Made by a program: the position numbers and the translations under genes. 64,000 bases of DNA, taken from NCBI GenBank assembly GCA_027487515.1, contig JAIYDL010000014.1, forward strand, positions 1 through 64,000. Reading direction: 5' to 3'. Below the pieces are notes generated by a model. That model ran no database searches and was not told where the DNA came from. It saw only the letters and a list, made by a program, of their open reading frames with translations. The number at the start of each line of letters is the position of its first letter. The first letter of the stretch is position 1. The stretch is from Pseudomonadota bacterium (GTDB lineage Bacteria > Bdellovibrionota > Bacteriovoracia > Bacteriovoracales > Bacteriovoracaceae). Shown here one piece after another: positions 5,250 through 56,309 of the stretch.

Positions 5250-6554
5250 ATGATGAAGGTCCTCTTCCGCCCCATCGACGCCGCTAGCTTGACCGTCTTT
5301 CGCATCGGGGCCGGTCTCCTGATGTCCCAGGAGCTCGTGAACGGTCTGCTGATCGGCAAATTCGATCAGTACGTCGCTCCAGAGTTCAACTTCAGCTACC
5401 AATTCTTCGGTTGGGTTAAACCCTGGCCCTACTGGGGCATGGCGCTTCACTACGCAGGAACAATTTTCGCGGGCCTTGCCGTCGCCGTCAACTTCCACTG
5501 CAGGGTTTTCTCCATCGTCCTTTTTTTGGGTCAGCTCTTACTCTTCCTCTTCGAGCAGACTGAGTACATCAACCATAGCTACCTCTACTGTCTACTGAGC
5601 TTTTGGATGATCTTCATGCCTCTTGGAGAGAGGCACACCTCTTGCCCTGCCTGGCCACTTTATCTCATCCGCTTCCATATGGGTCTGGCCTACTTCTTTG
5701 GAGGGGTCGCAAAGCTTAACCCAGATTGGCTCGGCGGGAGCCCGATGAATCTCTTCTTGGACTCTCAGAAGGGCGGCTTAATGAGCTTTCTCTCCGGTCA
5801 GTCTTGGTCGCCGTTCCTCTACAGCTACGGCGGAGTGGCGTTCGATCTCCTGGTCACTCCCCTCCTCCTTTGGCGCCGAAGTCGCCCTCTCGCATTTTTG
5901 GCGGCTGTCTTGTTTCATGTGTCCAACGCAGCGATGTTTGGTCTGGGGACGTTTCCCTGGTTTTCGATTTTTCTTTCGATGATGTTCTTTGGCCCCTCCT
6001 TCCCAAGACAAATCCCTGTGCTGCGAGATTTTCTATCCCGCAAACCCGACCTCACAGTTAACTTTCTCCCCCAGAGGCAACTGGCCCTCGCCCTCCTCAT
6101 CTACGGCGTCGTCCACACCCTCTTGCCCTTCCGGCATTGGCTCTACCCAGGAGACCCAAGCTGGACAGAGCAGGGGCACATGTTCGCGTGGAGGATGATG
6201 CTTCGGCACAAGGAGGGAAGAATCACTTTTTTCGTCAAACGAAAGAGTACCGGGCAGGTTGCATTCCCAGATCCCCTCAACTTCATCACTCGTCGGCAAC
6301 TTGAAGACATGAGAGGGAAGCCTGACCTCATCCTTCAGTTCTCCCACTTCCTGCGAGATCACTACCAAGAGAAGTGGGGAGAGCGAGTGTCGGTTTTTGC
6401 CAGCGCTCAGATCCGCCTCAATGGGAGAACGCAGCAGGAAATGATTGAGCCAGGAACAGACCTTGCTCGAGAGCAAAGAGACCTCCGTCAGGGCGACTGG
6501 ATCAGGCAACTCAATGAAACTCCATCCGAATTCCGCTCTGCGGAAAGAGATTAA
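5250..6554 (+). CDS. HTTM / vitamin K-dependent gamma-carboxylase family membrane protein
   Basis: The 434-residue protein has both parts of the eukaryotic gamma-glutamyl carboxylase. First is an HTTM-type membrane domain with many transmembrane helices (about 1-290), containing YFFGGVAKLNPDW. The lysine at residue 155 aligns with Lys218 of human GGCX, the proposed catalytic base. Second is a lumenal-type domain with GHMFAWRMMLRHKEG (compare the FSWRMM region of GGCX) and later RLNGRTQQEM, comparable to the INDRFQQR region. The family oxidises reduced vitamin K to drive Glu carboxylation, but bacterial members may act on other substrates. It stands alone after a terminator, starting at tandem ATGs (5250, 5253). 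A peptide substrate is not evident; the neighbouring exported proteins are candidates only by proximity. Confidence 0.85.
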   Translation: MMKVLFRPIDAASLTVFRIGAGLLMSQELVNGLLIGKFDQYVAPEFNFSYQFFGWVKPWPYWGMALHYAGTIFAGLAVAVNFHCRVFSIVLFLGQLLLFLFEQTEYINHSYLYCLLSFWMIFMPLGERHTSCPAWPLYLIRFHMGLAYFFGGVAKLNPDWLGGSPMNLFLDSQKGGLMSFLSGQSWSPFLYSYGGVAFDLLVTPLLLWRRSRPLAFLAAVLFHVSNAAMFGLGTFPWFSIFLSMMFFGPSFPRQIPVLRDFLSRKPDLTVNFLPQRQLALALLIYGVVHTLLPFRHWLYPGDPSWTEQGHMFAWRMMLRHKEGRITFFVKRKSTGQVAFPDPLNFITRRQLEDMRGKPDLILQFSHFLRDHYQEKWGERVSVFASAQIRLNGRTQQEMIEPGTDLAREQRDLRQGDWIRQLNETPSEFRSAERD

Positions 6555-43476: not shown

Positions 43477-44307
43477 CTACTTCAACCCGAGGTGATCGGG
43501 AAGTTCAAACCGTCGAAGTTCCTTCGTCCACGGGTCCGTGAAAGCGAGCAGTGAAGCGACGAGCTGGAGGCCCTGCCGGTTCTTGTTTCCCGTTCCATAT
43601 TTCGGGTCTCCCATGACCGGGTAACCGATGAAATCAAGGTGGCGCCGGATCTGATGGAGCCGCCCGGTTTCGATGCTGACGTGAAGGAGACTCTTGCCCT
43701 TCAGGGCCTGGGCGACGTGCACGTGGGTTACGGCACTCTTGTCATCGAGGGCGGCCGAGATCGTCCGCTTCTCTCCCACGGGAAGCTCACCGAGCACGAT
43801 CGCCTCGTACTCTTTGTGAATCTTGTGCTTCTGAAAGAGATCCCCGAGGGCGGCCGCAGCACTGGGGGTGTAGGCAATCAGCATGAGCCCTCGAGTCTCG
43901 CGATCAAGCCGGTGGACGAGATAGACTTCTTCTCCCTTAACTTTCTCTACGTAGCGCAGAACCGAGGCATGGTCGCTCGTTTGCGATCCCTGGGGGACTG
44001 CGCCCGCGGGCTTTATCCAGACTCCGTAATGGGCGTCTTCATACAGAGCGGTGAGATCGGCGAGGGTTGGCAAAGAAAGCACCTTCGGATCATAGTAAAC
44101 GTGAACGACATCCTCCGGGGCCAGGGCTTCCCGGAGTGAGCGGATGCGAAGGATTCGACCTTGACCACGGCGCTGGATCCAGACCCCACCCTTCTCGGCC
44201 ACTTCTCCGAGCTGCGTCGGCGTCAGCGGCGTGAGTTTCCGGAGAAACTCGCCCAGCGTCGTGCGCTGGGGGAAGTGAGTCTTAACCGCCGCCTTGTAGG
44301 TTCTCAT
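43477..44307 (-). CDS. RluA-family pseudouridine synthase
   Basis: Converts uridine to pseudouridine in rRNA or tRNA. The 276 residues have an S4-like N-terminal region (FLRKLTPLTPTQLGEVAEKG) and the catalytic-Asp motif HRLDRETRGLMLIA. The RluA/RluD C-terminal block is LHVSIETGRLHQIRRHLDF, then GYPVMGDPKYG. The exact target cannot be told from sequence. The ATG overlaps the stop of the upstream membrane protein by one base, so they form an operon. Its last 202 bp recur at 42172-42373. Confidence 0.92.
   Translation of the reverse strand: MRTYKAAVKTHFPQRTTLGEFLRKLTPLTPTQLGEVAEKGGVWIQRRGQGRILRIRSLREALAPEDVVHVYYDPKVLSLPTLADLTALYEDAHYGVWIKPAGAVPQGSQTSDHASVLRYVEKVKGEEVYLVHRLDRETRGLMLIAYTPSAAAALGDLFQKHKIHKEYEAIVLGELPVGEKRTISAALDDKSAVTHVHVAQALKGKSLLHVSIETGRLHQIRRHLDFIGYPVMGDPKYGTGNKNRQGLQLVASLLAFTDPWTKELRRFELPDHLGLK
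43490..43691. repeat. 202-bp direct repeat, copy 2 (inside the intact gene)
   Basis: The 3' part of the intact RluA-family gene, matching 42172-42373 in the same orientation. The copies are 1318 bp apart and bracket the 42655 gene. Confidence 0.92.
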
Positions 44308-46601
44308 TAGGACAGGAAGCTATCGAGTGTTTCCCGGGAAAGCTCGTGGGATTCGTGGACCTTCGCCAGGTCTTTTTTCATCAGCTGGTGGAGGCACTTA
44401 AAGCTCTCGACGATCTTCCCCTCTTCGCTCGATTGCAGTTTCTGCAACGACAGCAGGGTCTCTTTGAGCTCGTGATCCTTCTGCCCGGTACCGAAGTTAA
44501 ACGGCACTTGTTCGGCCGGAGACTTCTCGTACATCATGTGAAGCTTGGCCAAAAGCACGTCCAACTGAGAGAGCTTCTTATCGAGCGTGGTGACGTTGAA
44601 GTCAAGGCGCGCGAGCTCGTCTTTGTACCGGTTGGCGAGCTTCTGCTGGGCTTCGTCGAAGGGTGGGAGCTGCGCGAAGAGCGTGTTCGTGATGGAGATG
44701 AGCTTCGCTTTGACCTCGAGGAGTTCGAACTTAAGTTTCTTGTAGTCGGTTTTCACGCCCTCGAGGTGGACTAAGATTTCGAGGGTCTCCCGGCCCTTCT
44801 TCGTGAAGCCCTGGGAGATCTGCTGAAGCTTTTGAGCATCCGTTCGGAGCTCGTCGTTCTGCTGGAGGATCGAGCGGTTGATCGAGAGGAGTGTGTCGGC
44901 CCGCTCGACGGCGGCGAGGAAGTTCTCTCGCAGATCATTGGCGAGCGAGACTTCCTGCCGGATGATCTCACGCTTTTCCTCCTGGATCGCCTTCATCGAC
45001 AGCACCGTTTCACGAAGCCCGGCGGTGTCCTTCTCGAGACCGTTGATCGTCCGGAGGCACTCACGCTTCTCTCCGTTGACTCGTTCGAAGAGGCGGACGA
45101 GGTCCACGTAGAGGTCGGCCACGTCGTTACTTTTAAAGTCCTTCTCGAGGAGTCGGATCTGGTCTTCGTCGAGGGTGTCATCGTTCCAGTGGGTCACGAA
45201 CTTCCCGAGTGTCGCGCGGGTGAGGTTCACCTGTTCGATGATCGCCTCCCGGACCGAGACCAGCGGATAGAAGAACACCATCACGCGGTCTTCGCGGTTG
45301 ATCGTGATCGGAGTGACGTACATTTCGAAGGGCTGGGCGGGAGCGTACTCATCCTGCTTCACTTTCACCGGGTAGATCCCCGCCTGTTTGTGCACCAGTG
45401 CTTGGTAGACCGGGTCCTCGGCGAGGTTGAGGTAATCGCGCAGGTAGTCCCAGTTGAATCCTTCGGACAAAACTTCTTCGTCCGAGAGGTAAAACTGCTC
45501 CAGGAAAAGATGGTTGTACCACGTGAGCTTAAAGCCCGTGTCGATGAGGCACCCGGCGAACGGGAGTCCGGTATGGAGCATGGTCCCGAGGTTGAGTTTG
45601 AGCTTGAGCTCATCGAGGAGCCGGATGATGTCGGCGCGAGTGAGATCCGAGTAGTGATCGAGCATGAACCGCTGGTCCCCCATGATTCCTTTCTCAATGA
45701 CACTTTTAACTTCAGTCTCGACCTGCTCCCCCATGCGGACCTTCTGCCACCGGAAGAGGTAGAGGGCGCCCACCCAGGCAAGGCCCAGGAACGCGGCCAT
45801 CCCGGCAAGGAGCAGCACTAACTGGTTTTGTTTTCTAAAGCGCAGTCCCTGGAGCTCGGAGCCGCGCTTCTCCACATCCACGAGCCACTGCGAGAGTGCG
45901 AGGCTCGCCTGGGTGACATGGGCCTTCAGGTCACGGGCCTGAGAGCTCACACTTCCCAGGAGATCGATCTCGTTCCCCATCGAGGTGAATCGGCCCGCGA
46001 GGGCCTCCTTCTCTCCAGCGTCAAGCCCGGAGCTCGCGACCAGCTGCTGCAGGCGGCGAACGTCAGAGCGGAGGTTAGAAACTTGCGGAGATCCGCCGAC
46101 GGTTTTCGGTGTGAGCTGGTCGATGCGATCCTGCATCCGCTGGGCGATGAGTTCGACGTTCCGGTACCGCCGTTCCCGGGCGTAGGAGATGAGGCCTGTG
46201 GTTTTTGTGCCGAGAACTTTCAGTGCGTCCGAGGGGTCCGACATGCCGGAGGTGTTGTTGATCAGTCGAAGGAAGGTCCGCACGCTGAGGGAGAGGTCCT
46301 CGGAAGCTTTGACTTCGAGGAGTTCCTCGGTCTCAGCGATCTTTTGCGAGAGCTCCCGCATTTTGTCGTTCGCCTTGTCGGACTCGGCCCAGGAGAGGAG
46401 CTTCCCGAGTTTCTCAAAGCTCATGTCTTTTTTTAAATGGTCGACGAGCGAGTTAAACCGGATGACTCGATCTTCTTCAGTGCTTTGAAGATGGTTGAGC
46501 CGGAGCGCGAAGATGGTGCAGCCGATGGCGAGACCGACACCGATGAGGAAGATTCCGTGAATCACCCACTGGCCGCGATTAAAGGTTTTTTTCCAATCCA
46601 T
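44307..46601 (-). CDS. Membrane sensor-like protein with periplasmic coiled coil and PAS-like domain, no output enzyme
   Basis: A 764-residue protein from ATG 46601 (AAAGGG upstream; a GTG nine bases earlier is less likely). Layout: transmembrane helix (about 12-34), a periplasmic helical/coiled-coil region (about 35-270), and a second helix (about 270-295, LVLLLAGMAAFLGLAWVGALYLF). Next comes a PAS-like cytoplasmic domain (GCLIDTGFKLTWYNHLFLEQF, then an 'EDPVYQALVHKQAG' stretch). The rest is a long coiled coil (about 500-760). There is no histidine kinase, GGDEF or clear MCP hairpin. It resembles chemoreceptor architecture without the signalling tip. It follows fliA behind a terminator, so a role linked to motility or polarity is possible but inferred. 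Confidence 0.8.
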   Translation of the reverse strand: MDWKKTFNRGQWVIHGIFLIGVGLAIGCTIFALRLNHLQSTEEDRVIRFNSLVDHLKKDMSFEKLGKLLSWAESDKANDKMRELSQKIAETEELLEVKASEDLSLSVRTFLRLINNTSGMSDPSDALKVLGTKTTGLISYARERRYRNVELIAQRMQDRIDQLTPKTVGGSPQVSNLRSDVRRLQQLVASSGLDAGEKEALAGRFTSMGNEIDLLGSVSSQARDLKAHVTQASLALSQWLVDVEKRGSELQGLRFRKQNQLVLLLAGMAAFLGLAWVGALYLFRWQKVRMGEQVETEVKSVIEKGIMGDQRFMLDHYSDLTRADIIRLLDELKLKLNLGTMLHTGLPFAGCLIDTGFKLTWYNHLFLEQFYLSDEEVLSEGFNWDYLRDYLNLAEDPVYQALVHKQAGIYPVKVKQDEYAPAQPFEMYVTPITINREDRVMVFFYPLVSVREAIIEQVNLTRATLGKFVTHWNDDTLDEDQIRLLEKDFKSNDVADLYVDLVRLFERVNGEKRECLRTINGLEKDTAGLRETVLSMKAIQEEKREIIRQEVSLANDLRENFLAAVERADTLLSINRSILQQNDELRTDAQKLQQISQGFTKKGRETLEILVHLEGVKTDYKKLKFELLEVKAKLISITNTLFAQLPPFDEAQQKLANRYKDELARLDFNVTTLDKKLSQLDVLLAKLHMMYEKSPAEQVPFNFGTGQKDHELKETLLSLQKLQSSEEGKIVESFKCLHQLMKKDLAKVHESHELSRETLDSFLS

Positions 46602-46732
46602 TGAAGTCACCCTTTTAAGTCTTTTCGAATACTTAATTGTCCGACAGATCGAATGGGATTGGATAGCCCTGAGGATTTTTTTTTCACCGAACCGAAATAA
46701 TCGGGTTCACGGAGTTCCACCCTCAAGTGCTA

Positions 46733-46791: not shown

Positions 46792-47577
46792 TTAGCCGGC
46801 GAGGTCTTCGTAGGACTCGAACTGGTTGCGCAGCTTCGCCTTGAGCTTGAGGATCGCTTGAGTGTGGAGCTGAGAGACCCGAGACTCTGTGACGTCGAGG
46901 ACCTGGCCGATTTCTTTGAGGTTCAGATCCTCGAAGTAGTAAAGCGAGAGGACCAGGCGCTGCTTTTCCGGGAGCGTCTTGATGCCGTCCTTAATAATTT
47001 CCTGTGAGCGCTTGTAGCCCACGGCCGTCTGGGGATTTGCTCCCCGAGATGTCTCCATCAGAGAGATCATGAGCTTCTTGTCGCCCTTGCTCATCGCGGC
47101 GGCGTCCTCGATGTTCATGAGGGAGACGGACTTGGACTTATTGATGAGCTCGTGGAACTCATCCATCGAGCACTTCAGGTGCTCGCACATTTCTTCGTCT
47201 GATGCGGACCGACCGAGGTCCTTCTCGAGTTGTGCGTACGCCTTTTCGACGACCTTCGCCTTCTCCCGCACGGAGCGTGGGACCCAGTCCTGGGACCGGA
47301 GTTCATCGAGGATGGCCCCCCGGATGCGGAACTCGGCGTAGGTCTTAAACTTGTTATCTCGAGTCGGATCGAACTTTTCAATGGCGTCCATGAGCCCGAT
47401 CACCCCACAGGAAATCATGTCATCGAGCTCGATGTTCGGTGGAAGCCGAGAGGCGATTTTCTGAGCGATGTAGCGCACGAGAGGAGCGTACTCAAGGATG
47501 ATCTCATCCTTCACCTTCGGGTCAACGGTCGAGCGGTAATCTTTGAGGTTCTTGAGTTTCGTCGTGAGTGATGACAT
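46792..47577 (-). CDS. fliA: Flagellar sigma-28 factor
   Basis: Directs late flagellar gene transcription. The 261 residues have region 2 with LEYAPLVRYIAQKIASRLPP and ELDDMISCGVIGLMDAIEKFDP. Then come FKTYAEFRIRGAILDELRSQDW and PRSVREKAKVVEKAYAQLEK of the FliA/WhiG group, and region 4 with LPEKQRLVLSLYYFEDLNLKEIG and the helix-turn-helix VTESRVSQLHTQAILKLK. It is the last gene of the operon, 23 bases after flhG. Confidence 0.96.
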   Translation of the reverse strand: MSSLTTKLKNLKDYRSTVDPKVKDEIILEYAPLVRYIAQKIASRLPPNIELDDMISCGVIGLMDAIEKFDPTRDNKFKTYAEFRIRGAILDELRSQDWVPRSVREKAKVVEKAYAQLEKDLGRSASDEEMCEHLKCSMDEFHELINKSKSVSLMNIEDAAAMSKGDKKLMISLMETSRGANPQTAVGYKRSQEIIKDGIKTLPEKQRLVLSLYYFEDLNLKEIGQVLDVTESRVSQLHTQAILKLKAKLRNQFESYEDLAG

Positions 47578-47600: not shown

Positions 47601-48458
47601 TTAATGGGCGTCGTGCTCATAGGTCCGAAGATCTGCGCCAGGGAACGGCGTAGTCCGGGGACCTCCGGCTTTTTCGGTGAACCCCGTTAAAAGTTTAACG
47701 AAGTTCCGGTTGAACTCATTACTCCCCTCGGAGAGGAAAAAAGTATCAAAACTTTCAGCGGAAACGTTGAAGCGCTGGATGCCACCGAGGATCTGGGTCC
47801 GGACGCCGAGGAAGTTCTCGATCGTTTCACTCAGTGTCAGCACGACTTTCTGGAACTGCTTCTCGGTCTGGTACATGTTGACGAGGAGATGGTTCTCGGT
47901 GATCCCGAAGCGCGTGGCGAGGAGCTTGACCAGCGAGTACGAATCGGTGATCGACGACTTGTCCGGGGTGACCACGATCCACCGGTGGTCGCAGTACGCA
48001 TTGAGTGTCAGTGCTTCCCGAGAAACGCCGGCGGGACAGTCCAGGAGAATGAAGTCGTACTCGGTCTCGTGGGACCGGATGATGTCCACGATGATCTCAT
48101 CGAAGTTGAGCCGTGACTCGAAGACGGCGTCGGAGCCGTTGCAGGCCGGAAGAAGGTGGAAGTTCCCGCGTCTCTGCAGGCAGTCTTCGAAGGCGGCCTC
48201 CCCGGAGAGGATCTTTTCGAACTTGTTTTCGAGCGGGAGCCCCAGTTTGATGGCCGTGTTTGAGAGGTTCGAATCGCAGTCGATGAGGAGTGTTCGGTGG
48301 CCAGCGGCGGCCAGTTCCTGAGCGGCTTTGAGGGCGATCGAGGTCTTTCCGACTCCACCTTTGCCTCCGGTGACGGAGATCTTAGTGCAGACCCGAGCAT
48401 CATCGCTGCGGGGCCCGGTGGAGCTGAATGATTGAAGCCATTCGCTTGTCTTGTGCAT
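47601..48458 (-). CDS. flhG: FlhG, MinD-like ATPase for flagellar number control
   Basis: A SIMIBI ATPase that with FlhF sets flagellum number and place. The 285 residues show the deviant Walker A GGKGGVGKTS (31-40), Walker A' DCDSNLSNTAIKLGL, and DYFILLDCPAG-type Walker B (YDFILLDCPAGVSREAL). VVTPDKSSITDSYSLVKLL is typical of FlhG. The N-terminus MHKTSEWLQSFSSTGPRSDD lacks the DQAxxLR helix by which FlhG activates FlhF GTPase in Bacillus and others. A C-terminal amphipathic helix for membrane binding is not obvious. It sits 82 bases after flhF. Confidence 0.93.
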   Translation of the reverse strand: MHKTSEWLQSFSSTGPRSDDARVCTKISVTGGKGGVGKTSIALKAAQELAAAGHRTLLIDCDSNLSNTAIKLGLPLENKFEKILSGEAAFEDCLQRRGNFHLLPACNGSDAVFESRLNFDEIIVDIIRSHETEYDFILLDCPAGVSREALTLNAYCDHRWIVVTPDKSSITDSYSLVKLLATRFGITENHLLVNMYQTEKQFQKVVLTLSETIENFLGVRTQILGGIQRFNVSAESFDTFFLSEGSNEFNRNFVKLLTGFTEKAGGPRTTPFPGADLRTYEHDAH

Positions 48459-48540: not shown

Positions 48541-50085
48541 TTAGAACTGAAAGAGCCCGGCCATGAGCCTCTCAGCGGTTGCCCCTTCGATGTCATCGGG
48601 GACCACTGGGCCGGTACCAAAAAACTTCAACGGGAGCTTGTTGTGGGCCTTGTGAACATTGAAGAGGGCCCCAAAGTTCATACAGAGATCCACATGAGAA
48701 ATGATAACACCGTCCACGACGTCTTTGTAACGGGCAATGATTTTCCGGTTATAAAGTTCAGAGTGAATCGCGGAAAGTGTGCACAGGATTTCGACGTGCC
48801 CGAAGCCGCGCTTGAGGGTCTCGATAAATTTTTTTGTCTCGTCGGTGTTCCGGGTATTTAGCCGGACGTCGATGAGCACGGATCGTCCAGCGTCCGTCGC
48901 CTTCCGGCAAAGGCCTATGACCTCGGCAAAATTCTGGACCTTCTCGACCTTGATCCCAAACACCTGGGCGGCGAAGTCCGTAGACCCGGAGTTCTGCGCG
49001 TCCTGCGAGAACTGGATCAGGACGACGTCTTTTTTGAGGACTGCGATTTTGGTTCCCATGGTGGACTGGCCTGACGCTGCTTCCGAAATCAGAACGGTCA
49101 CCACCGGGTCCCCGGAGTCCACTTTCGAGAAGAGGGGAATGGCGGTGTTGATGGAACTGGCCATCTCCTGGAGAGCGAACTCAAAGATCACATCGGGGTT
49201 CTCCAAGTCGTCCTTGGAGAGCTGGTAGTTTGCTTTCTTGATGAGCTCGAGGATATGGACTTCGTCGACGTCGAGAGTTTTGAGCGTCGTCCGGAGCTGG
49301 TAGATGCCCTTGGCCTCGTTCAAATGCTTCTGGTTGAACTGATAGTTCTGGGACATTTCAAGGAGCTTCTGTTCCAGGAGGGCGAGCTTATGCTGGGTCG
49401 TCCGGAGCTCCTGCCGCAGTTCCGAGTAGGCTTCCCGGCTCACCGACGCAGGTGATTCTCGGAGTGACTCCCGCGGCATCGGCTCGCGCGTGGGGGCCCG
49501 GGTCGGTTCGACCGCCTCTTCTTCGACCTCTCGCCTCGGCGCGCGAGCGCGCCGCGGGGCCACCTCTTCCCGTGCCGGGGGCTCGGCGTACTTTCCCCGG
49601 GTCGGCGCTGGCCTCGGGGGGAGGTCCTCGGCGGAGTCAACGTCGAAGCTCGCTTCTTCACCGTCAGTGAGAAAATCATCGAGACTGTTTTTAATCAGAG
49701 AGGAGGTCTTCGTGGTGATGTCGGAGAGGCCCGCGGAGCCCTTGGCGAGCGTGTTCACGACTCGGTTCAGGCCGATGGTTCCGTACCCGCCGCCCGCGTT
49801 GGCTTCATTGTTATTGTACTTGGTGATGGTGTCTTTGATGACGCTCGCGGGCTTTTGGTAGAAGGCTTCTTTTTGTTCGTTGTTCAAGACTTTATCCACC
49901 TTTGCCTTCTTCTCGAAGCTCTTCTCCGAGATGGCCGCTGTGATCTCGATGCGCTTTTTTTTGAAGGCACCCTTTATTCCGTTATTCGTGACTGTCTTAA
50001 GGATGATGGCGTCTGGGCCCAGCTCGACTTTAACCGCTTTGAGGGCTTCTTCCAGAGTGTCAGCTTCGAACTTCTTGACGAACAT
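48541..50085 (-). CDS. flhF: FlhF with a degenerate, probably GTPase-dead, SRP-type domain
   Basis: FlhF places the polar flagellum. The 514 residues begin with the FlhF B-domain signature MFVKKFEADTLEEALKAVK...LGPDAIILKT. A disordered Arg/Pro/Glu linker follows (about 140-220), then an N-domain-like helix bundle and a G-domain-like fold. The G motifs are lost. Where GPTGVGKTTT is expected there is ISEAASGQST (333-342). DTAG is replaced by LIDVRL (404-409), and TKLD by ISHVD (462-466). Yet FlhF landmarks downstream remain: FGALFNVHKAHNKLPLKFFG then VPDDIEGATAERLMAGLF. The frame is open and the gene sits in its normal place, so it is likely expressed. A nucleotide-independent scaffold role is my inference. 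Confidence 0.93.
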   Translation of the reverse strand: MFVKKFEADTLEEALKAVKVELGPDAIILKTVTNNGIKGAFKKKRIEITAAISEKSFEKKAKVDKVLNNEQKEAFYQKPASVIKDTITKYNNNEANAGGGYGTIGLNRVVNTLAKGSAGLSDITTKTSSLIKNSLDDFLTDGEEASFDVDSAEDLPPRPAPTRGKYAEPPAREEVAPRRARAPRREVEEEAVEPTRAPTREPMPRESLRESPASVSREAYSELRQELRTTQHKLALLEQKLLEMSQNYQFNQKHLNEAKGIYQLRTTLKTLDVDEVHILELIKKANYQLSKDDLENPDVIFEFALQEMASSINTAIPLFSKVDSGDPVVTVLISEAASGQSTMGTKIAVLKKDVVLIQFSQDAQNSGSTDFAAQVFGIKVEKVQNFAEVIGLCRKATDAGRSVLIDVRLNTRNTDETKKFIETLKRGFGHVEILCTLSAIHSELYNRKIIARYKDVVDGVIISHVDLCMNFGALFNVHKAHNKLPLKFFGTGPVVPDDIEGATAERLMAGLFQF

Positions 50086-50089
50086 CTAC

Positions 50090-52165
50090 TTATAACCTCA
50101 CGGTTCCGAGAGATCGTATGTTAACTTCGGGACTAAGCTCATTATGGCTTACGACTATCATGTTGGGAATGAATTTTTCCGTCAGTCGCTTGAAGTGGCG
50201 GCGGATCACCGGCGAGCAAAGAACCACCATCTTCTCGCCCTGAGAAGTGGCCTCTTCAATTTTTTCATTGAGGGATGCCAGAATCGTTTGCGTGACCTTC
50301 GGGTCGAGGTTCAGCTGGGTCCCGTGGTCTGTGCTGATGATCGCGCGAGCGACGGCCTCTTCGAGGCCCCGGTCGAGGGTGAAGAGCGGAACGTCTCCGC
50401 CCGCACCTTTGATCCGTTCGGTGATGGTCCGGTAGAGTGCCTGGCGAACGTACTCCGTGAGGGCCTCCGCGTCTTTGGTCCCGAGGCCATGCTCGGCAAG
50501 AGTCTCGAGGATGGTGCGGAGGTCTCGGATGGAGACACCCTCTCGGAGAAGGCTCTGGAGGACCTTCAGGACAGTCCCAAGCGGCGTGATGTCGGGGACA
50601 AGATCGGAGACGATTTTCGGGTTGTCTTCTTTGAAGTTATCGAGGAGCTTCGTCAGTTCCTGACGGCCCAGGAGCTCCGAGAGATTCGCTTTGAGAACTT
50701 CCGTCAAATGGGTCGCCACGATCGTCGAGAGATCCACGACGGTGTACCCGTTGTACTGCGCTTCGTCCTTCCGATCATCGGTGATCCAGAGGGCCGGGAG
50801 ACCGAAGACCGGCTCCTTGGTTTCGATGCCATCCATCTGTTCGATCACGGTCCCTGGGTCCATCGCCATCATGTGATCCGGGAGAAGTTCCCCGCGCGCG
50901 ATCTCGATCCCTTTGAGCTTGATCGAGTAGCCCCCCGGCTTGAGCTCCAGGTTATCCTTGATCCGGACCGACGGGATGATGATTCCCCAGTCCACAGCGA
51001 ACTGCTTCCGGATGTGGGAGATCCGCTCGAGGAGGTCTCCGTTTTGTTCGGCGTCGACGATGCTCACGATGCCGTAGCCCACTTCGAGTTGCACGAGTTC
51101 CACCGGAAGGAGAGACTCGAGGGTCTCGGTTTTTGTTTTGGTGTCCTGAACTGCGTTCGTGACGGCCGCCGCAGCCGCGAGCTCTTTGTTCCGATCAATC
51201 CGGAACCCCGCGAAGCCGATGACTCCACCGATGGTGAGGAACGGGAGCGCGGGGAACCCGGGGATGAGGCCGAAGACACCGATCGCGGTGGCCGTGATGT
51301 AGAACGCCTTCGGGTGGGCGGAGAACTCCTGGTTCACTTGCTTCCCGAGGGCTTCGGAGCCCGAGTTTCGCGTGGTGATGATACCGGCGGCGGTCGAGAT
51401 GATGAGCGCCGGAATCTGCGCGATGAGTCCGTCACCGACGGTGAGGAGGGTGAAGATCCGAGCGGCGTCCGCGAAGTTCATGTCCTTCTGGGCGACGCCG
51501 ACGATGATACCACCGACGATGTTGATCGCCGTGATGAGGATACCGGCGATGGCGTCGCCTCGGACGAACTTCGAAGCACCGTCCATGGAACCGTAGAAGT
51601 CGGCTTCCTGGGCGACCTCGGCCCGGCGCCGTTTGGCCTCTTTCTCGTCGATGAGACCGGCGTTGAGATCGGCGTCGATCGCCATCTGTTTCCCGGGCAT
51701 CGCATCGAGAGTGAACCGAGCGCTAACCTCGGCGACTCGACCGGCACCTTTGGTGATAACGATGAAGTTGATGACGACGAGGATCAAGAAGATGATGATC
51801 CCGACGGCGTAGTTACCACCGACCACGAACTCACCGAAGGCCTCAATGATGTGCCCCGCGGCTTTCGTGCCTTCGTCCGCGCCGTTTAGGAGGATGTTTC
51901 TGGTGGAGGCAACGTTCAGCGAGAGTCGCAAGAGTGTCGTGATCAAGAGGATCGATGGGAACGTGGAGAAGTCCAGAGGTTTCTTCGCGTACACGGAGAG
52001 CAGGAGGATGGCGATGGAGATCGCGATCGACAGCGCGAGGAAGAGGTCGAGGATCATGGGCGGCAGCGGGACGACCATGACGCCGAGAGTGACGATCAAC
52101 CCGATGGCGACGGCGAGTTCCGAGTTCTGCGAGAAGATTTTGAGCCGAGAGAAAATTCCGTCCAT
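50090..52165 (-). CDS. flhA: FlhA, flagellar export gate protein
   Basis: Forms the nonameric export gate of the flagellar type III apparatus. The 691 residues have an eight-helix membrane half (about 15-320) with the FHIPEP-type loop region (GKQMAIDADLNAGLIDEKEAKRRR, highly conserved). The cytoplasmic domain (about 350-691) holds chaperone-substrate binding segments such as LELKPGGYSIKLKGIEIARG. It ends 4 bases before flhF. Confidence 0.97.
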   Translation of the reverse strand: MDGIFSRLKIFSQNSELAVAIGLIVTLGVMVVPLPPMILDLFLALSIAISIAILLLSVYAKKPLDFSTFPSILLITTLLRLSLNVASTRNILLNGADEGTKAAGHIIEAFGEFVVGGNYAVGIIIFLILVVINFIVITKGAGRVAEVSARFTLDAMPGKQMAIDADLNAGLIDEKEAKRRRAEVAQEADFYGSMDGASKFVRGDAIAGILITAINIVGGIIVGVAQKDMNFADAARIFTLLTVGDGLIAQIPALIISTAAGIITTRNSGSEALGKQVNQEFSAHPKAFYITATAIGVFGLIPGFPALPFLTIGGVIGFAGFRIDRNKELAAAAAVTNAVQDTKTKTETLESLLPVELVQLEVGYGIVSIVDAEQNGDLLERISHIRKQFAVDWGIIIPSVRIKDNLELKPGGYSIKLKGIEIARGELLPDHMMAMDPGTVIEQMDGIETKEPVFGLPALWITDDRKDEAQYNGYTVVDLSTIVATHLTEVLKANLSELLGRQELTKLLDNFKEDNPKIVSDLVPDITPLGTVLKVLQSLLREGVSIRDLRTILETLAEHGLGTKDAEALTEYVRQALYRTITERIKGAGGDVPLFTLDRGLEEAVARAIISTDHGTQLNLDPKVTQTILASLNEKIEEATSQGEKMVVLCSPVIRRHFKRLTEKFIPNMIVVSHNELSPEVNIRSLGTVRL

Positions 52166-54375: not shown

Positions 54376-55110
54376 CTAGGTGTTGAAAGACCGGAGGATG
54401 GCGCCGGTGACCAGCTGCCACCCATCGACGAGCACGAACAGCAGGAGCTTGAAGGGCATCGACACGAGCATCGGCGGGAGCATCATCATCCCCATCGCCA
54501 TGAGAACGGACGCGACCACCATGTCGAGCACGATGAATGGGATGTAGAGCAGAAATCCGATTTGGAAGGCCGTCTTGAGCTCAGAGATGATGAAGGCCGG
54601 AATGAGATAGTGGGTCGGAACCGCCTTGATATCAGTGGGAGCGGCGGCGTTGGTGACGTCATAAAAAAGTCCGATGTCCGCTTTCCGGACGTGCTTTTCC
54701 ATGAAGCCCCGAAGGTCCTTCTCGAGCCCCGCGAGGGCCTGGGTGCCGTCGATTTGCTTCGCCTGGTACGGCTTCAGGGAATTCTCGTAGATCGAGGTCC
54801 CGGTGGGCATCATGACGAACACCGAGAGGAAGAGAGCGAAGCCGATGAGGAGCTGGTTGGGAGGCATGTTCTGCGTTCCCAGCGCCTGTCGCATGAACGA
54901 AAGAACAACCACGATCCGAGTGAACGAAGTGCAAAGGATGATGATCGCCGGGGCCAGAGTGAGGATGGTAAAAAGGAGCAGCACCTCGAGGGTATCTACC
55001 AGGTTTGTACCGGCCCCGAAGTTGACCGAGACCCCGGGGAGATTGGTTTGCTGGGCCACCGCGGGGAGCGCGAAAAAAAGAAGGACTGCGATGGCCAGGA
55101 ACTTTTTCAT
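54376..55110 (-). CDS. fliP: FliP, flagellar export apparatus protein
   Basis: Core pore subunit. The 244 residues start with a cleavable signal peptide (MKKFLAIAVLLFFALPAVAQQ), as known for FliP. The conserved FTRIVVVLSFMRQALGTQNMPPNQLLIG, ALNxFMEKHVRKAD-like region and GFLLYIPFIVLDMVVASVLMAMGMMMLPP follow. The ATG overlaps the fliO stop by one base. Confidence 0.97.
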   Translation of the reverse strand: MKKFLAIAVLLFFALPAVAQQTNLPGVSVNFGAGTNLVDTLEVLLLFTILTLAPAIIILCTSFTRIVVVLSFMRQALGTQNMPPNQLLIGFALFLSVFVMMPTGTSIYENSLKPYQAKQIDGTQALAGLEKDLRGFMEKHVRKADIGLFYDVTNAAAPTDIKAVPTHYLIPAFIISELKTAFQIGFLLYIPFIVLDMVVASVLMAMGMMMLPPMLVSMPFKLLLFVLVDGWQLVTGAILRSFNT

Positions 55111-56270
55111 CAGTTGAACTCGATGGGCTTGAGTTTCTTCGCCTTCTTTCGGAGTTCATCGGAGAACTTGACGATGTCCTTGGCCGTCAGGGCCTGGATC
55201 CCGCGCTCTTCAGGGAGCGGCGCAGACTCGGCGATGTTCTCCTTGAGCTTCAGCGCCGGGGCCTCCGCGTCGGATTCTGCGACCCCGAGGTTTAGGTCAA
55301 AGTTTGTCCCGGTGACGAGCTTCTCCCCCTCTTTAATGAGGCCCGAGGTGTCCGTCATTTCAGACAGGAACTGGAGTCCGGTTTCGGAGTTGGCCACGAG
55401 GAAGATCTGCTTGTGGGCCTTGACCACGAGGAGGGAGCGCTTCGGAGCGACGTAGGTCGTGGAGAGGACCTGGATCAGCTGGGTGTTATTTAGGAACCCG
55501 AGTTTTCCTTTGTTGAAGACTCCGCGCTTTAAGAGCTGGACGACTCCGTAAAAGAGACCCAGGACGAGGGCGAGGAAGATCGTAAACTTGGCCGCGTAGC
55601 CGGCGAAGGAAAAGGTATCGGGAGTGCCTCGAGGAGTGCTCGACGTCGGCGCAAGGTCAGAGCGGTTCGCTGGCGCCGCGGCCCGCACGGAAACCTGGTC
55701 TCGCTCCACGGAATCGCCGCTCTTGAGGGACGCCTTCAGGGCAGGCTTCGGTGCCGTCTTGACGGCGTCATCCTTAATGAGCTTATTGAGGTAGTCTTCG
55801 TTCAGCGCCTCTTTCGGCACCGCCGACTCGATCTTTGCGAGCACCTTATTCTCTGACTTCATGGACGCAACAACGGGGGCCACGGCCGAGCGCTCAGCAC
55901 TCCGAACTCCTCTCGGGAAGATGACTTCGATGTTGCGCCCCTTCCACCCGAGGTCAACGCCGGACTGGTTCACTTCATACGGGAGGATCGCTCGGACGAT
56001 CGCCTTCCCGTTCAAAACATTGGCGGAGAGGCGAGCACCGTTGACGGTCCTAGTGATCGCGTCGAAGGGCTCCGCACCAGAGAGGGTGATCTCGATGGAG
56101 TTTCCGAAGACTCGCACATCCGGCTGCTCTCCGGAGCGTCCCTCGAGGGACACGTTGACGTAGCCATGAGGGCCATTGACCGCAAGGTCCACACTGGTCA
56201 CTTTGACACCGGCGGTGGCACCGAAAGAGGCCAGAGCGATCAATCCGAAGATGGTGAGTTTAGAGATCAT
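55110..56270 (-). CDS. fliO: FliO with a long N-terminal AMIN-like extension
   Basis: FliO helps FliP assembly. The start is ATG 56270 (MISKLTIFGLIALASFGATAG, signal peptide, AGGAAGGA at proper spacing). At 386 residues it is about three times the usual FliO length. An N-terminal beta-rich domain (about 20-140, KVTSVDLAVNGPHGYVNVSL... IEVIFPRGV) looks like an AMIN-type domain. A linker (about 140-235) leads to the FliO part: a transmembrane helix (FTIFLALVLGLFYGVVQLL) and the soluble piece with LIQVLSTTYVAPKRSLLVVKAH. An AMIN-like domain would point to peptidoglycan or periplasmic contact. The domain call is by eye. Confidence 0.85.
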   Translation of the reverse strand: MISKLTIFGLIALASFGATAGVKVTSVDLAVNGPHGYVNVSLEGRSGEQPDVRVFGNSIEITLSGAEPFDAITRTVNGARLSANVLNGKAIVRAILPYEVNQSGVDLGWKGRNIEVIFPRGVRSAERSAVAPVVASMKSENKVLAKIESAVPKEALNEDYLNKLIKDDAVKTAPKPALKASLKSGDSVERDQVSVRAAAPANRSDLAPTSSTPRGTPDTFSFAGYAAKFTIFLALVLGLFYGVVQLLKRGVFNKGKLGFLNNTQLIQVLSTTYVAPKRSLLVVKAHKQIFLVANSETGLQFLSEMTDTSGLIKEGEKLVTGTNFDLNLGVAESDAEAPALKLKENIAESAPLPEERGIQALTAKDIVKFSDELRKKAKKLKPIEFN

Positions 56271-56309
56271 AGCGGTCATCCTTCCTGGTCTGCGCGGAAA
56301 TCCCACGGG

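Follow-up and report, generated by a model that had tools for sequence, protein, structure and literature searches.

FlhF of the class Bacteriovoracia is probably a class-wide pseudo-GTPase

FlhF is the model guanosine triphosphate (GTP) switch that marks the site of flagellum assembly in bacteria. Can such a switch work when its GTPase site has been replaced? The question is raised by the flhF gene in a 64,000-nucleotide stretch of DNA (contig JAIYDL010000014.1, hereafter the window) from a genome of the class Bacteriovoracia, a class that includes known bacterial predators. A preliminary description of the window had read this gene as an FlhF without a GTPase active site in an otherwise intact operon, and had suggested nucleotide-independent positioning of the flagellum. 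We propose that FlhF of Bacteriovoracia is a class-wide pseudo-GTPase scaffold and that FlhG is the remaining nucleotide switch, a reading to which we give a probability of roughly 0.7. The gene and the parts of its nucleotide pocket lie in the window as follows.

48541..50085, minus strand: flhF in its putative pseudo-GTPase form, an open reading frame (ORF) of 514 amino acids with an ATG start; it matches TIGR03499 with E 1.2e-13, and the best VIA matches of its predicted model are the FlhF structures 8r9r, 2px0 and 2px3.
49057..49086, minus strand: replaced P-loop SEAASGQSTM, with Gln340 at the position of the P-loop Lys.
48853..48876, minus strand: degenerate G3 motif LIDVRLNT, in which Asp406 is kept and the Gly is lost (Leu in the window).
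48748..48774, minus strand: class-specific motif SAIHSELYN, recognized by its conservation in the class.
48685..48702, minus strand: degenerate G4 motif ISHVDL, with His464 in place of Lys and Asp466 kept.
48592..48618, minus strand: kept G5 loop GTGPVVPDD, placed by alignment.

The three motif stretches thus read as first described, and we compared them across the phylum. Our genome set comprised 129 genomes in 48 genera, which form one family and, as sampled, the entire class (by NCBI lineage, Bacteriovoracaceae belong to the class Bacteriovoracia of the Bdellovibrionota); members include Halobacteriovorax marinus (L084) and Bacteriovorax sp. BSW11_IV (L098) and DB6_IX (L101). The genome that contains the window (G000) is assembled in 27 contigs and is 93.85% complete. 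A protein search found class-type FlhF in 119 of the 129 genomes and 44 of the 48 genera. From these we took 110 non-redundant class sequences, covering all 44 genera, and compared them with 32 FlhF sequences from ten other families of the phylum. As a side observation, flhF of one metagenome-assembled genome (record UBA4096; L024/L063) has a putative in-frame TGA near its end, with an open frame of 466 amino acids.

At the P-loop Lys position, Gln was present in 109 of 109 class sequences (44 of 44 genera) whereas Lys was present in 32 of 32 sequences from other families; the sequence L032 ends at a contig edge before this site and is not counted. The change is therefore a trait of the class and not of one genome. 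The first P-loop Gly is replaced by Ser in 107/109, the next residue is Glu or Asp in 102/109, and the Ser/Thr directly after the Gln, which carries the G1 hydroxyl, is retained in 105/109. The consensus S[ED]xxxGQ[ST][ST]M thus stands where an SRP-type (signal recognition particle-type) GTPase has GxxGxGK[ST]. A DTxR-type G2 motif, searched for with a single regular expression, was found in none of the 110 class sequences versus 21 of the 32 relatives. The G3 motif DxxG keeps its Asp in 109/110 class sequences and its Gly in only 2/110, and the G4 motif [ST]KxD keeps its Asp in 109/109 and its Lys in only 2/110. FlhF of the other families is itself imperfect at these sites, with the G4 Lys in 17/32 and the G3 Gly in 28/32. 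The G5 loop is preserved in the class (P in 106/108, D in 108/108), and residues I440, H441, E443, Y445 and N446 of SAIHSELYN reach conservation values of 0.89-0.95 in the class and are not conserved in the relatives. An intact motif elsewhere in the protein would have spoken against the preliminary description; we found no other P-loop in the window FlhF. A loose P-loop expression run on the 110 class sequences matched L030 (twice), L084 and L085. Two of these matches fall in the linker and two in the G domain but outside the P-loop site; none was a full GxxGxGK[ST].

Judged from the alignment, the residues needed for GTP hydrolysis are replaced throughout the class. It is very likely that these proteins do not hydrolyse GTP, and loss of physiological GTP binding also appears likely, with less assurance. 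The earlier statement that all nucleotide motifs are gone has to be narrowed: it holds for the P-loop Lys and Gly, the G3 Gly and the G4 Lys, but not for the Asp residues of G3 and G4, the Ser/Thr of G1 or the G5 loop, and the Pfam SRP54 model still matches the window FlhF above its cut-off (28 bits versus 22.7), over residues 402-512 only. The pocket could accordingly have been repurposed as a ligand sensor that hydrolyses nothing and binds a guanine ligand, such as guanosine diphosphate (GDP), GTP, guanosine tetraphosphate (ppGpp) or cyclic diguanosine monophosphate (c-di-GMP), through the G4 Asp and the G5 loop. The nearly invariant Asp residues of G3 and G4 and the P and D of G5 fit this idea, as do the Ffh and FtsY structures with (p)ppGpp among the fold matches. 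The P-loop Lys, two P-loop Gly, G2, the G3 Gly and the G4 Lys, however, are gone in nearly all members, and Asp residues can persist for reasons of folding or of an interface. We consider a ligand sensor unlikely.

Is the protein FlhF at all? Its setting and its N-terminal domain both bear on this.

49906..50085, minus strand: N-terminal domain (residues 1-60), a homologue of the FliG-interaction domain (from pN/pS, family models, BLAST and predicted fold).
50090..52165, minus strand: flhA, intact (TIGR01398, 904.7 bits).
47601..48458, minus strand: flhG, a MinD-type ATPase of 285 amino acids (ORF and family matches).
46792..47577, minus strand: fliA, sigma-28 (TIGR02479, 272 bits).

The gene lies between flhA and flhG, with fliA downstream and fliL, fliM, fliO, fliP, fliQ, fliR and flhB upstream, so that the flagellar operon is intact as the preliminary description had it. 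The FlhF equivalog model of NCBIfam, TIGR03499, scores 51.7 bits on the window FlhF, under its curated cut-off of 174.15. Both FlhF models nevertheless begin to match at residue 1 (TIGR03499 over 1-293, PRK14721 over 1-83), and in BLAST comparisons the N-terminus is 38-57% identical over 51-115 residues to FlhF of ten other-family loci (L040-L046, L048-L050). The N-terminal domain is predicted to fold as strand-helix-strand-strand, with a predicted local distance difference test score (pLDDT) of 68-92 in blocks of ten residues, and the predicted model as a whole has an SRP-type NG fold that is nearest to FlhF (8r9r, 2px0, 2px3). When solved structures were searched with a profile of the class, FlhF ranked first; many haemagglutinin chains also matched, and since they fall on the linker and the coiled part we took them as chance. 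The match to the FlhF chain 9en1, which we infer to be the N-terminal (FliG-interaction) domain, covers residues 3-56 with E 0.003, no better than the haemagglutinin matches of the same list. A search of solved structures with the single sequence returned only chance-like matches. The flhA-flhG/fliA slot and the structured N-terminal domain of the FliG-interaction type, as far as alignment and model go, indicate an FlhF orthologue, and the identity given in the preliminary description stands.

We then asked if the replacement arose more than once. A tree of FlhA (83 rows: 52 from the class and 31 others) separates the class from the others by a branch of support 100, and the distribution of Lys and Gln requires one change. 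This tree is a quick one of a single protein, made without bootstrap; it carries a warning of long branches in the other families and does not include genus g53, which has no FlhA. Members of g53 fall on the class side in the FliA and FlhF trees (support 99 and 100), although the long branches of L038 and L163 make fine placement in the FlhF tree unsure. On these trees, the P-loop replacement arose once, in the common ancestor of the class. The protein has since remained under constraint. Within the genus of the window (23 sequences, 253 pairs), the ratio of nonsynonymous to synonymous differences (pN/pS), a rough measure here because pS is near saturation, was 0.361 for the linker, 0.141 for the N domain and 0.122 for the G domain, and the N-terminal domain is the best conserved part of FlhF with a within-genus value of 0.040. 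Sequencing error, which the preliminary description had named as a possible refutation, is ruled out by the same change in 109/109 sequences; class-wide conservation of the replacement motif together with purifying selection argues against both such an error and plain decay. A kept fold, lost nucleotide motifs and purifying selection are expected of a pseudo-GTPase, and alignments and model suggest that class FlhF combines all three.

If FlhF does not switch, what could time flagellum placement? The partner FlhG offers a candidate.

48423..48458, minus strand: FlhG N-terminus MHKTSEWLQSFS, with a class-specific 'WL' motif and no DQAxxLR (alignment).
48342..48365, minus strand: FlhG P-loop GKGGVGKT, intact (alignment).

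DQAxxLR is the enhancer helix of FlhG, which donates a Gln that stimulates hydrolysis by FlhF (PMC12826062). Class FlhG has DQAxxL in 0 of 100 non-redundant sequences. A Trp-Leu pair precedes the P-loop in 96/100 (W conserved at 0.97 and L at 0.96), and the ATPase P-loop GKGGVGK[ST] is present in 99/100. Ten of the 110 class rows, some of them truncated by a contig end, gave no FlhG, and L038 and genus g53 have none in the operon slot. Because FlhG keeps a complete ATPase P-loop, the FlhF/FlhG system is not nucleotide-free overall. The preliminary interpretation is thus partly supported: the residues needed for hydrolysis by FlhF are replaced, but this P-loop and the retained residues of the FlhF pocket may still give nucleotide a part in positioning.

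We suggest the following sequence of events. The half of the pocket that serves phosphate binding and hydrolysis (G1 Gly/Lys, G2, G3 Gly, G4 Lys) would have been swapped for the fixed S[ED]xxxGQ[ST][ST]M in the ancestor of the class. The protein would have retained its NG fold, the N-terminal domain of the FliG-binding type, the base-side Asp and the G5 loop. The N-terminal domain would hold FliG, and the pseudo-NG domain would keep FlhF at the pole or membrane without GTP hydrolysis. Timing, which normally comes from FlhG triggering the FlhF GTPase, would come instead from the adenosine triphosphate (ATP) cycle of FlhG, which may act on FlhF with its new N-terminal 'WL' segment taking over from the DQAxxLR helix. 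We hold this FlhG-driven mechanism at a little under even odds. In Shewanella, binding of FlhF to HubP is reported to be apparently nucleotide-independent. A table entry drawn from earlier work gives BSW11_IV and DB6_IX one single polar sheathed flagellum (PMC4511183), so that single polar placement seems compatible with an FlhF that has no catalytic residues. These cells probably place their single flagellum by a switch that differs from the textbook one.

A number of observations weigh against the scaffold reading. The retained G3 and G4 Asp, G1 hydroxyl and G5 loop fit residual nucleotide binding, and a nucleotide may therefore still bind weakly. Vibrio GTPase-motif mutants reportedly lose polar localisation (PMC6092412), and in P. 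aeruginosa GTP promotes FliG binding and hydrolysis is thought to release FliG (PMC12713375). The HubP/FimV landmark FimV-core gave no match over cut-off in six genomes, three from the class and three others, and DUF2802 (FipA) was found in no class genome while 110 of 368 phylum genomes match. Loss of FipA was rejected as a cause: DUF2802 is also absent from families f8, f12, f24 and f29, whose sampled FlhF P-loops are intact, and there is thus no link. On the side of FlhG, the sampled members of families f6, f11 and f3 are without DQAxxLR though their FlhF P-loop is intact, and Pseudomonas FleN also has none (PMC12713375); loss of DQAxxLR alone is therefore no sign of a dead FlhF. Aligned across the phylum, DQAxxLR loss is more widespread than FlhF pocket loss. 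Among 24 FlhG of relatives, DQAxxL is present in 6, both motifs are missing from 16, a stray Trp occurs in 1 and 1 was unscored. Four more with DQAxxL (L177, L178, L179, L187) come from low-scoring or broken FlhG genes in f8 and f27. In some of the families that branch close to the class in the FlhA tree, FlhG is eroded beside an intact FlhF pocket: L177 and L179 keep the DQAxxLR helix and have no P-loop, L179 being shortened to 128 amino acids, L187 has the odd P-loop ARPGAGKS, and L039, L041, L042 and L180 have no ORF of at least 120 amino acids between flhF and fliA (FlhG elsewhere in these genomes was not searched). Both DQAxxLR and P-loop are present in FlhG of f29 (L186, L190).

Divergence of the G domain counts partly on the same side, and it bears on whether FlhF is slowly becoming dispensable and heading for loss. 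We compared G-domain identity at matched FlhA identity, with few pairs of relatives in each FlhA bin (6 to 88). Class and relatives gave 0.35 (3 pairs) versus 0.34 at FlhA 0.55-0.60, 0.44 versus 0.44 at 0.65-0.70, 0.47 versus 0.50 at 0.70-0.75, 0.69 versus 0.66 at 0.80-0.85 and 0.85 versus 0.83 at 0.85-0.95. The class was less conserved at 0.60-0.65 (0.32 from 212 pairs versus 0.41 from 14) and at 0.75-0.80 (0.56 versus 0.62). Most bins thus show similar identities, and the class falls below the relatives in two of the seven. A slow loss would also suit the long branches of the extreme members L038 and L163 and the four genera without detectable FlhF (g39, g52, g55, g56), which have no FlhA either but do have FliG_C matches. 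It is very improbable given that the Gln is invariant across 44 genera, that G-domain divergence resembles that of the GTPase relatives in most bins and that the G-domain pN/pS is as low as stated above.

An active FlhF encoded elsewhere in the genome would likewise remove the need for a scaffold. In an SRP54 profile search at E<=1e-10, 124 of the 126 class genomes with any match had at most two; G029 and G096 had three each, two of them matching complementary regions of the profile in the manner of a split gene. Seventy-three of the class genomes searched have a completeness of 90% or more and a contamination of 5% or less. This search revealed no second FlhF and no more loci than the two that Ffh and FtsY should give. 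The control on nine relatives detracts from this result: FlhF was found in eight (missed in G037), and neither Ffh nor FtsY in G340 and G056. The search is therefore not exhaustive, and in the incomplete window genome a gene could also be missing. Apart from an FlhF too diverged for the profile, a paralogue is largely contradicted by these searches, and the gene we describe occupies the flhA-flhF-flhG-fliA slot. We regard this as the least probable of the alternatives.

The scaffold reading can be set beside known systems. With FlhF of polar flagellates (2px0, 2px3, 8r9r, 9en1), the class form shares the operon slot, the N-terminal domain, the NG fold, the G4 Asp and the G5 loop; it differs by Gln for the P-loop Lys, absence of G2, loss of the G3 Gly and G4 Lys, and the new SAIHSELYN. 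Bdellovibrio-type FlhF (family f6) shares the operon and the phylum, and its G4 Lys is replaced in 9/9 rows, but its P-loop GPAGSGKT is intact, and its FlhG has neither DQAxxLR nor WL. Eukaryotic pseudo-GTPases, such as the pseudoGTPase domains of p190RhoGAP (PMC5593906) and degenerate septins (PMC10731463), likewise are reported to keep a GTPase fold and to have lost nucleotide function; they are eukaryotic GTPase types, whereas FlhF is a bacterial GTPase of the SRP type. Our literature search found no paper that joins FlhF with Bacteriovorax or with pseudo-GTPases; most subscription papers and preprints lay outside it, and we do not claim novelty in print. The class is a natural experiment on which job of FlhF (pole finding, FliG recruitment or number control) depends on GTP. 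Throughout the class genera in which we found FlhF the trait is fixed, and it is open to study in culture, and the changed N-terminus of FlhG is a candidate for the replacement contact with FlhF.

Genus g53 extends the question beyond the flagellum. Its genomes (G119, G120, G121 and G122; 98, 88, 94 and 99% complete) gave no match to FlhA or FliG_C, the only two flagellar markers searched, whereas G000 and G027 match both in the same searches. Three of the four (L152, L153, L154) retain an FlhF in which N-terminal domain, GQ motif and SAIHSELYN are all present, adjoining fliA and the gene of a PAS/coiled-coil membrane protein. The pN/pS of g53 flhF is 0.138 for a close pair and 0.42-0.43 for two distant pairs, for which pS is near saturation. 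The ORF just upstream, of 169-173 amino acids, has no Pfam family over cut-off. That FlhF persists in a genus where neither FlhA nor FliG could be detected hints at a role outside flagella. The membrane protein also has a counterpart in the window.

44307..46610, minus strand: membrane protein of 767 amino acids with two hydrophobic segments, a PAS-like domain and a long coiled coil (from model, Foldseek and profile), downstream of fliA in the class.

Its model has a mean pLDDT of 79.1 and a predicted template modelling score (pTM) of 0.36, with PAS chains among the Foldseek matches, and no Pfam or NCBIfam match was found over cut-off. We considered the 110 class loci that extend 500 bases or more past fliA, a set in which some genomes count twice. 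A homologue lies downstream of fliA in 87 of them; the other 23 stop 574 to 1,269 bases after fliA, and a homologue could lie beyond. None was found in the loci of 29 relatives with the profile, which was built from class members. The protein is a possible partner of FlhF. One could go further and see FlhF as a nucleotide-free adaptor that links this membrane protein and the FliA regulon to the pole, a job that would outlive the flagellum, with the two-NTPase (nucleoside triphosphatase) switch simplified from either end across the phylum by loss of the FlhF GTPase in the class and of the FlhG ATPase or gene in some neighbouring families. We consider this doubtful, if less so than the ligand sensor.

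Some minor observations concern other genes. An Rfam search of the window gave no match at gathering scores. The window genome has four FliG_C matches (on C8, C24, C4 and C13), two of them in ORFs of 143 amino acids, and short ones also occur in some relatives. In the window, the FliO domain occupies residues 245-317 of a 398-amino acid protein (55110-56306) that has a long extra N-terminal part, and positions 5250-6554 encode an HTTM/vitamin K-dependent gamma-carboxylase-like protein.
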